From positions 1-42,422 of the forward strand of contig MFJJ01000019.1 of assembly GCA_001780895.1 (NCBI GenBank): a stretch of 42,422 bases of DNA. Reading direction: 5' to 3'. Every line of letters begins with the position of its first letter. Position 1 is the first letter of the stretch. Source of the stretch: Candidatus Gottesmanbacteria bacterium RIFCSPHIGHO2_01_FULL_46_14 (GTDB lineage Bacteria; Patescibacteriota; Microgenomatia; UBA10105; UBA927). A model generated the notes under the pieces. It worked only from the letters and a program-made list of their open reading frames with translations, made no database searches and was not told the DNA's origin. Position numbers and translations under genes: made by a program. Positions 9,935 to 11,939 of the stretch are shown here, piece after piece.

Positions 9935-10345
9935 ATGAGTATTCGTTTTCCTTTTGAACGAGAGCGATCTTCATTGTTTGGCTGGGTATACCGACCCTAT
10001 GCAGTTGTTTCTTTTTGGTCAAAGAAATGGGACGAGTGGCTTGATATAGGCATGATCGTCGATAGTGGAGCGGACTATACCATGTTGCCGAGAACCTATA
10101 TTGCCGAGCTGGGAATTGATGGAAAACATGAGACCCGTGAGCTTTCAACGCGAGGCGTTGGCGGATCGTCGCGAGTCTATCTTCTGCGTCGGAAACATCG
10201 AATCAAGCTTGGGCGTTGGGAACGACAAATTCCTTTGGGTTTTATTGATGCGATTGATATTCCACCTCTATTGGGACGACAAGATTTTATGGAAACGTTT
10301 CGTTTTACTCTCCATAATCACACAACGGAAATTGACATTGGCTAA
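9935..10345 (+). CDS. Retropepsin-like aspartic protease domain protein
   Basis: 'MIVDSGADYTMLP' catalytic D-S-G motif and C-terminal 'LLGRQDFMETFRFTLHNHTTEIDI'. Confidence 0.8.
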   Translation: MSIRFPFERERSSLFGWVYRPYAVVSFWSKKWDEWLDIGMIVDSGADYTMLPRTYIAELGIDGKHETRELSTRGVGGSSRVYLLRRKHRIKLGRWERQIPLGFIDAIDIPPLLGRQDFMETFRFTLHNHTTEIDIG

Positions 10346-10360
10346 TCGGTAGAGTACTAT
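10332..10360 (+). promoter_or_regulatory. Promoter for the aspS T-box leader
   Basis: TTGACA-17 nt-TACTAT, overlapping the end of the retropepsin gene. Confidence 0.6.
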
Positions 10361-10366
10361 ATGGCA

Positions 10367-10535
10367 ATTGAAATGCGATGATGGCTCAACACGCCGGAGC
10401 AGCGGGAAGAAACCCCGATTCAATCGGGGCTGTAGACCCCGCCGGGAATGCCCGATACAGCATACAACGAGAAGCAACGAAGGTGGTACCACGGTGAGAG
10501 CCGTCCTTTGATAGAATAGAAGGGCGGCTTATTTT
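10367..10535 (+). promoter_or_regulatory. T-box riboswitch leader upstream of aspS
   Basis: AACGAAGGTGGTACCACGGTGAGAGCCGTCCTTT forms the canonical antiterminator (AAGG/CCTT, 7-nt bulge TGGTACC, ACGG/CCGT). The alternative terminator AGCCGTCCTT...AAGGGCGGCT is followed by TATTTT. Confidence 0.88.
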
Positions 10536-11939
10536 ATGGAACGAACATTAGCAATCGAAACAGTCAAAGCAGTCGGAAAGGAAGTAAAGCTTCAGGGGTG
10601 GGTCAATACTAGGCGGGATCACGGCAAGATCATGTTTTTGGATCTTCGAGATCGATCCGGAATCGTGCAGCTCGTTTCCACCAAGGATTTGGCAGATGCA
10701 CGGGCAGAAGACGTGATCGAAGTCGTGGGTCTGGTCAAAGAGCGCCCCGCTTCTATGGTCAATCCCAAGATTGAGACCGGAACGGTTGAAGTGGAAATCA
10801 AAAGCATAGCCATTATTTCAAAAGCACGCGAACTCCCGTTTCCCATCGATACGGATGGGTATGACATCAACGAAGAAATTCGGATGAAGTATCGGTATCT
10901 CGATATTCGCCGTTCCCGCATGACAAGAAATCTGCGTGTTCGATCCAAGGTGACAACATTTATCAGAAATTATCTTACGGTACTGGATTTTGTCGAAGTC
11001 GAAACACCGATGCTTACAAAAACCACTCCAGAAGGAGCGCGAGATTTTATTGTTCCCTCGCGTCTCCAAAAGGGCAAATTCTACGCGCTTCCCCAATCAC
11101 CCCAGCAATACAAACAACTCCTCATGGTTGCAGGGCTTGAGCGATATTTCCAGATCGTTCGGTGTTTCCGGGATGAAGATCCGAGAAAAGACCGCGCATA
11201 CGGAGAATTTACGCAACTCGATATGGAAATGTCGTTTGTGACACAAAACGATATTCTCTCGCTAATTGAACTAATGTTTACCAAACTGGTTGGAGAAATT
11301 TTTCCGGAAAAACATATATCACAGTCTCCCTGGCCAAGAATTCCTCACAAGGAAGCGATGGCAACATATGGAACCGATAAGCCCGATATTAGAAAGGACA
11401 AAAACGACCCAAACGAACTCGCTTTTTCCTGGACCATCGATTTTCCGCTTTTTACCGAGCAATCGGAGGAAGATTTTTACCATGGATCGGGAGCAGCCAA
11501 ATTTGCTCCATCGCACCACATGTTTACTTCACCGCATCCGGACGATATTGGGCTTTTGGATACGGATCCAATGAAAGTTCGTGGACTCCAACATGACTTA
11601 GTGCTCAATGGCTATGAAGTCGGTGGGGGAAGCATTCGTATTCACGAGCGGGAAGTGCAGGAAAAGGTGTTTGATCTTATCGGCTTTAGCGAAAAACAAA
11701 AATCACAATTTGAACATATGCTCACGGCATTTACCTACGGGGTGCCGCCGCATGGGGGAATAGCACCGGGAATTGATCGTTTGGTCATGAGTATTTTGGG
11801 GGAACCCACGATTCGTGAAGTCATGGCATTTCCGGCCTCCTCGTCCGGTCAGACGAGCGTCATGGACGCCCCAAGTGACGCCACACCAGAACAACTCAAA
11901 GAGCTGGGAATTACCGTGATAAGTAAAAAGAAATTATAG
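10536..11939 (+). CDS. aspS: Aspartyl-tRNA synthetase, bacterial type without GAD insertion
   Basis: 'YALPQSPQQYKQLLMVAGLERYFQIVRCFRDEDPRKDRAYGEFTQLDMEMSF', 'GGIAPGIDRLVM'. 467 aa; runs from KPDIRKD straight to FSWTIDFPLF. Confidence 0.95.
   Translation: MERTLAIETVKAVGKEVKLQGWVNTRRDHGKIMFLDLRDRSGIVQLVSTKDLADARAEDVIEVVGLVKERPASMVNPKIETGTVEVEIKSIAIISKARELPFPIDTDGYDINEEIRMKYRYLDIRRSRMTRNLRVRSKVTTFIRNYLTVLDFVEVETPMLTKTTPEGARDFIVPSRLQKGKFYALPQSPQQYKQLLMVAGLERYFQIVRCFRDEDPRKDRAYGEFTQLDMEMSFVTQNDILSLIELMFTKLVGEIFPEKHISQSPWPRIPHKEAMATYGTDKPDIRKDKNDPNELAFSWTIDFPLFTEQSEEDFYHGSGAAKFAPSHHMFTSPHPDDIGLLDTDPMKVRGLQHDLVLNGYEVGGGSIRIHEREVQEKVFDLIGFSEKQKSQFEHMLTAFTYGVPPHGGIAPGIDRLVMSILGEPTIREVMAFPASSSGQTSVMDAPSDATPEQLKELGITVISKKKL

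Follow-up and report, generated by a model that had tools for sequence, protein, structure and literature searches.

Introduction

T-boxes that act on transcription have been described as generally requiring a long Stem I with the elbow-binding module (IDTM; PMC7583486). The review literature makes this connection because the decision has to be taken before the polymerase passes the terminator. Most translational T-boxes have been described as having an ultrashort or intermediate Stem I (PMC7583486). The TBDB searches with a short-Stem-I model covered Actinobacteria and truncated class I hits (PMC7778990). The open-access papers searched include none on T-boxes of the candidate phyla radiation (CPR) or Patescibacteria, which does not prove that none exists.

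Here, the leader of aspS is described on a stretch of 42,422 nucleotides (the window) from Candidatus Gottesmanbacteria. This leader shares with canonical class I T-boxes (RF00230; for example, Bacillus glyQS and tyrS) the order of Stem I, Stem II, Stem IIA/B, antiterminator and terminator, together with the UGGN bulge and a predicted output at the level of transcription. It differs from them by the absence of the specifier internal loop, the AG bulge and the IDTM apex. The specifier loop itself closes its Stem I, there is hardly any Stem III, and its covariance-model score is far below the cut-off. The ultrashort translational T-boxes of Actinobacteria (ileS in Nocardia farcinica and Mycobacterium tuberculosis) resemble it in their truncated Stem I without an IDTM, in the S-turn of Stem II (by published description) and in a presumed dependence on Stem II. 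In contrast to these, the aspS leader ends in a terminator and not in a ribosome-site sequestrator, occurs in another phylum, and belongs to a group with wider targets (aspS here; valS, proS, trpS, argH and others in relatives). The elements of this group, with an ultrashort Stem I, terminators and broad targets, are T-boxes of a variant outside both described classes. A third system, from Clostridium acetobutylicum, is a T-box with two codons (Saad et al., 2013, cited in PMC4052509). It reportedly recognizes tRNA-Asn and tRNA-Glu via overlapping codons in the specifier loop and, like the present leader, ties tRNA-Asn charging to transamidation. The aspS leader differs in having one codon, a minimal hairpin and a lone aspS gene.

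The evidence makes it quite probable that the leader is a transcription-attenuating T-box with an ultrashort Stem I, in which uncharged tRNA-Asn, read by the codon AAC, controls aspS. For Patescibacteria as a whole, it is fairly likely that terminating T-boxes without the elbow-binding arm, built on a 5-9-nt loop and Stem II, are widespread, and that tRNA-Asn, not tRNA-Asp, governs part of the aspS genes, since the AspRS they encode feeds Asn-tRNA synthesis.

A T-box in front of aspS

The first-pass annotation had proposed a compact T-box controlling aspS, and this was borne out. The Rfam model RF00230 matches positions 10369-10511 with 38.0 bits (E 3.3e-7 for the local stretch; E 2.5e-7 when the whole genome was searched). 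The alignment spans all 219 model positions, the parts are in place (Table 1), and the downstream gene was correctly named. This is the sole Rfam match within the window. The gathering score for RF00230 is 93 bits, so an element scoring 38.0 is overlooked by routine annotation. The order of the parts was taken from the Rfam alignment and not from free folding: a thermodynamic fold of the entire leader mispairs the T-box region and does not form the T-box architecture. As such mispairing can occur with a two-state switch, this fold was not counted as evidence.

Table 1. Features of the aspS leader and gene (positions in the window).
Feature	Position	Strand	Basis or detail
Sigma-70-type promoter	TTGACA 10332-10337, 17 nt, TACTAT 10355-10360	+	Consensus scan, 10 of 12 matches
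Ultrashort Stem I	10375-10400	+	Rfam alignment, local fold, homologous hairpin in related aspS leaders
Predicted specifier AAC (Asn codon); next base A (10391), the usual purine	10388-10390	+	Position and homology
Stem II with S-turn GAA/GUAGA	10402-10442	+	Rfam alignment; fold -19 kcal/mol
Stem IIA/B region CGGGAAUGCCCGAUACAGC with F-box-like CCGAUAC, putative pseudoknot	10443-10461	+	Rfam alignment; conserved in alignment A1
Linker with purine-rich GAGAAGCAACG	10462-10479	+	Sequence and alignment
Antiterminator AAGG-TGGTACC-ACGG-TGAGAG-CCGT-CCTT	10480-10508	+	Rfam alignment
T-box bulge UGGUACC	10484-10490	+	UGGU is the predicted partner of tRNA NCCA
Terminator hairpin and interrupted U-tract	10498-10535 (hairpin 10498-10530)	+	Fold
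aspS	10536-11939	+	Aspartate--tRNA ligase, 467 aa; TIGR00459, 546.8 bits; ATG at 10536

The leader thus holds a genuine T-box. Its kind is common in the clade but largely escapes standard annotation. Matches to RF00230 at E <= 0.01 were found in 58 of 96 sampled relatives, nine of which have one over the cut-off. Of 145 genomes from across the phylum, 36 have a match at E <= 1e-6 and five have one over the cut-off. The Rfam threshold thus conceals a layer of CPR gene regulation. The host draft genome (943 kb in 63 contigs) itself holds two further T-boxes: contig C4 has a long one, and on contig C11 a short T-box precedes ileS.

The low score (38 against 93) could also be the mark of a decayed, non-functional relic, and several close relatives have an aspS without a T-box motif (L033, L035 and L040). 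Every sensor and switch element is intact, however, and many leaders of the clade that carry cognate codons are laid out in the same way, which makes decay a barely credible explanation.

Stem I and the specifier codon

A strongly reduced Stem I without distal motifs had been recognized before, but in the wrong hairpin. The stem gcggg/cccgc was taken for Stem I, and the Asp codon GAC at 10435-10437 for a possible specifier of tRNA-Asp. Both stem and codon are present; GAC does lie in the internal loop of a good stem, and the downstream gene is indeed aspS. However, the Rfam model aligns the stem (10402-10442) to Stem II, where GAC overlaps the 3' strand of the S-turn (10432-10436; GUAGA(C)). 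The sequence GUAGAC is identical in nine ileS leaders, that of the host included, and is GUAGAA or GUAGAT in others. Before ileS, an Asp codon would be meaningless; GAC is therefore not the specifier, and this candidate was rejected. Furthermore, the internal loop has no counterpart in five related aspS leaders, and a better-placed hairpin upstream carries cognate codons. Sensing of tRNA-Asp through this GAC is accordingly scarcely conceivable. In T-boxes, the A-G-A of the S-turn strand has been described as part of a string of five purines that lines the codon-anticodon duplex (PMC7583486).

Stem II is reduced to a simple hairpin whose loop is rich in purines (GGUAACAA or CUAAGAA) in the aspS leaders L113, L115, L127, L034 and L093 and in the Pro-codon leaders L142 and L147. 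The shortest leaders with a cut-down Stem II have only about 92-110 nt to the T-box; in the aspS leader L115, which lacks the S-turn, this distance is 92 nt.

The hairpin overlooked in the first-pass annotation is 26 nt long (Table 1), without the AGAGA/GGUG distal loops (IDTM) of a long Stem I. It is made up of a GC/GC base, a K-turn signature UGA/GGA (GCGAUGA..GGAGC) and a GGC/GCC helix of 3-4 bp, closed by the 7-nt loop UCAACAC (10386-10392). Five related aspS leaders have an upstream hairpin GGY[CUGACAA]RCC, in which loop positions 3-5 are GAC and position 6 is A. The leader under study reads GGC[UCAACAC]GCC and has AAC and A at the matching positions. By position and homology, AAC in this loop is the predicted specifier. 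Overall, GAC is the loop codon in six aspS leaders (L113, L115, L127, L034, L093 and L029), and AAC in four others (L132, L231 and, from Nomurabacteria, L064 and L070).

The loop codon follows the downstream gene in other leaders of the relatives as well: AUC and A before ileS, GUC and A before valS, CCG or CCC before proS, proB and a CsaA-like gene, UGG before trpS and trpE, UCC before serS, UUC before pheS, and GGA before glyS. GAC or AAC loops also precede genes for PEP carboxylase, an asparaginase-like protein and aspartate aminotransferase. Gene identities were confirmed for representatives; proB, the CsaA-like gene and argH were named from sequence only. Under a blind rule, codon and gene agreed in 22 of 43 leaders of aminoacyl-tRNA synthetase genes, compared with 7.2 +/- 2.2 after shuffling (0 of 20,000 shuffles as high; kinship uncorrected). 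In the leader under study, AAC is cognate to the gene in that it precedes an AspRS that should serve tRNA-Asn. A cognate codon followed by a purine was found within a hairpin in 50 of 80 leaders and in 71 of 476 control windows (p 5e-18, with shared ancestry remaining in this comparison). Near-copies are found among the loops of several valS and argH leaders. The valS leader L122 (gene confirmed by HMM) has the loop CCAACCA, which reads ACC (Thr) and is an exception to the codon-gene rule.

Because the MAFFT alignment A1 is unreliable in Stem I across genes, Stem I was anchored on the codon. In the ileS leaders, the AUCA loop is constant and each of the five closing pairs occurs as at least three standard pair types. 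Since pairing was the criterion by which these leaders were picked, the evidence lies in how varied the pairs are and not in the pairing itself. In the ileS leader L149, the purine after AUC is missing.

AspRS and the choice of tRNA

An Asn codon in front of a gene for aspartate--tRNA ligase can be understood from the synthetases of the group. No AsnRS scored over the curated cut-off in the 25 genomes searched, host included, and GatB did so in 23 of them. GatB is present in the host. With GatB and no recognisable AsnRS, the host AspRS should charge tRNA-Asn too, and it is probably non-discriminating. The supply of Asp-tRNA-Asn by AspRS for amidation is a described route (PMC6523644). As AspRS would have to feed this amidation, a tRNA-Asn sensor on aspS would be sensible. 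The host AspRS is of the bacterial type, without a match to the GAD insertion in a Pfam domain search, and is nearest to the AspRS of Candidatus Gottesmanbacteria and of a Patescibacteria genome (76-81% identity), which places the host among the Microgenomates within the CPR. In a tree of AspRS, the AAC and GAC labels require at least two changes (L064 and L070 were left out of this tree). A search of the host draft genome (63 contigs) did not find a tRNA-Asn gene.

Could the leader instead sense tRNA-Asp, or both tRNA-Asp and tRNA-Asn, despite its AAC? Related aspS leaders do use GAC, and a T-box for two tRNAs (Asn and Glu) is known from the transamidation operon of C. acetobutylicum, as cited in PMC4052509. 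However, AAC would form an A-C mismatch with the anticodon GUC at the first codon position, the loop UCAACAC contains no overlapping Asp codon, and four further aspS leaders, belonging to two kinds of AspRS, also have AAC. The U of the T-box would form only a wobble pair with G73 of tRNA-Asp. Taken together, tRNA-Asp sensing, alone or in addition, is very unlikely.

In a side observation, the AspRS of L113 and L132 were found to carry a C-terminal YbaK-type editing domain (PF04073, E 2e-31 and 7e-30). This domain was also seen in L115 and L127 and is missing from the host AspRS (467 aa).

Predicted antitermination and termination

The promoter, antiterminator and terminator were found where the first-pass annotation had placed them (Table 1). 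Transcription from this promoter would start a few bases 5' of Stem I. In the antiterminator, helix A2 covaries, with changes on both sides in four of four pairs (98% paired in the tested structure); helix A1 is invariant among the leaders and uninformative on covariation. In the linker region, Stem III is essentially absent. The terminator hairpin directly before the aspS ATG has 12 bp and a folding energy of -19.1 kcal/mol (z -5.7 against shuffles) and is followed by ATTTT. It overlaps the 3' half of the antiterminator and, since the strand GCCGUCCUU is common to both, the two structures are mutually exclusive. A strict terminator scan called no terminator at this leader because the loop has nine bases and the limit was eight; folding was used instead.

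In the proposed mechanism, the anticodon GUU of uncharged tRNA-Asn would pair with AAC in the 7-nt loop of the K-turn hairpin. Judging by T-boxes of solved structure, the resulting duplex is probably gripped by the S-turn of Stem II, which would take over from the elbow-binding arm that this leader lacks. Through its free NCCA end, the tRNA would also pair with UGGU of the T-box bulge, and the antiterminator held in this way would win over the terminator, so that aspS is transcribed. Charged tRNA would be unable to pair, and transcription would end just before the ATG.

The output could also be translational, as in the actinobacterial ileS class, with the hairpin at 10498-10530 hiding AAGGG until tRNA binds, alone or beside termination. 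An ultrashort Stem I is the type known from translational T-boxes (PMC7583486). Moreover, AAGGG (10520-10524), a possible Shine-Dalgarno sequence, lies inside the hairpin, 11 nt 5' of the ATG, and the U-tract is interrupted (UUAUUUU). An added translational contribution is therefore possible. On the other hand, the hairpin is long and GC-rich with a U-rich tract after it, and the U runs at the end of most related leaders are clean. Some homologues lie far from a start codon; in L115, aspS starts 292 nt past the match. Terminator-like hairpins are general across the group, being present in 110 of 116 leaders without the IDTM pattern as compared with 84 of 266 coding windows, where the IDTM test was a simple pattern that misclassifies some leaders in both directions. 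A translational output is thus unlikely, and transcription attenuation by tRNA-Asn is the preferred reading.

Implications

If terminating T-boxes without the elbow-binding arm operate as proposed, they would contradict the IDTM as a general need for timely co-transcriptional tRNA capture. Most T-boxes of the clade are predicted to terminate and many keep only the specifier hairpin, which makes the IDTM idea testable with natural RNAs of ~120-170 nt. The small size of the aspS leader also favours structural work. An Asn codon before a synthetase named for Asp may furthermore serve as a readable sign of indirect Asn-tRNA synthesis.

Other T-boxes in the group

The long T-boxes with an IDTM nearly all carry GAA-N-UAC, a Tyr specifier. 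They were found at L001:1501-1821 (host contig C4), L004, L005, L009, L011, L012, L014-L019 and L021-L024, and precede orphan ORFs, not tyrS. Among these ORFs are a methyltransferase-like one (L009 tested) and a prephenate-dehydratase-like one (L019, weak); others have no Pfam match. One orphan family behind long T-boxes (alignment A2; L001:1-936 on the minus strand, L004, L027, L217 and L220) shows only faint similarity to TyrRS/TrpRS (PF00579, E 0.033 with L004), and its sole PDB match is the tyrosyl-tRNA synthetase 2cyb (E 0.09). It is possibly a degenerate synthetase-like enzyme.

Tandem T-boxes precede glyA at L120 (G023 contig C4, 213809-214173); the first contains UUUGGCAA and the second has a GGC (Gly) loop. 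Finally, a short tRNA-binding protein resembling CsaA or the C-terminal part of MetG is encoded behind T-boxes with a Pro codon (CCG or CCC), as found before proS and proB, at eight loci (L142, L145, L147, L116, L124, L135, L258 and L259).
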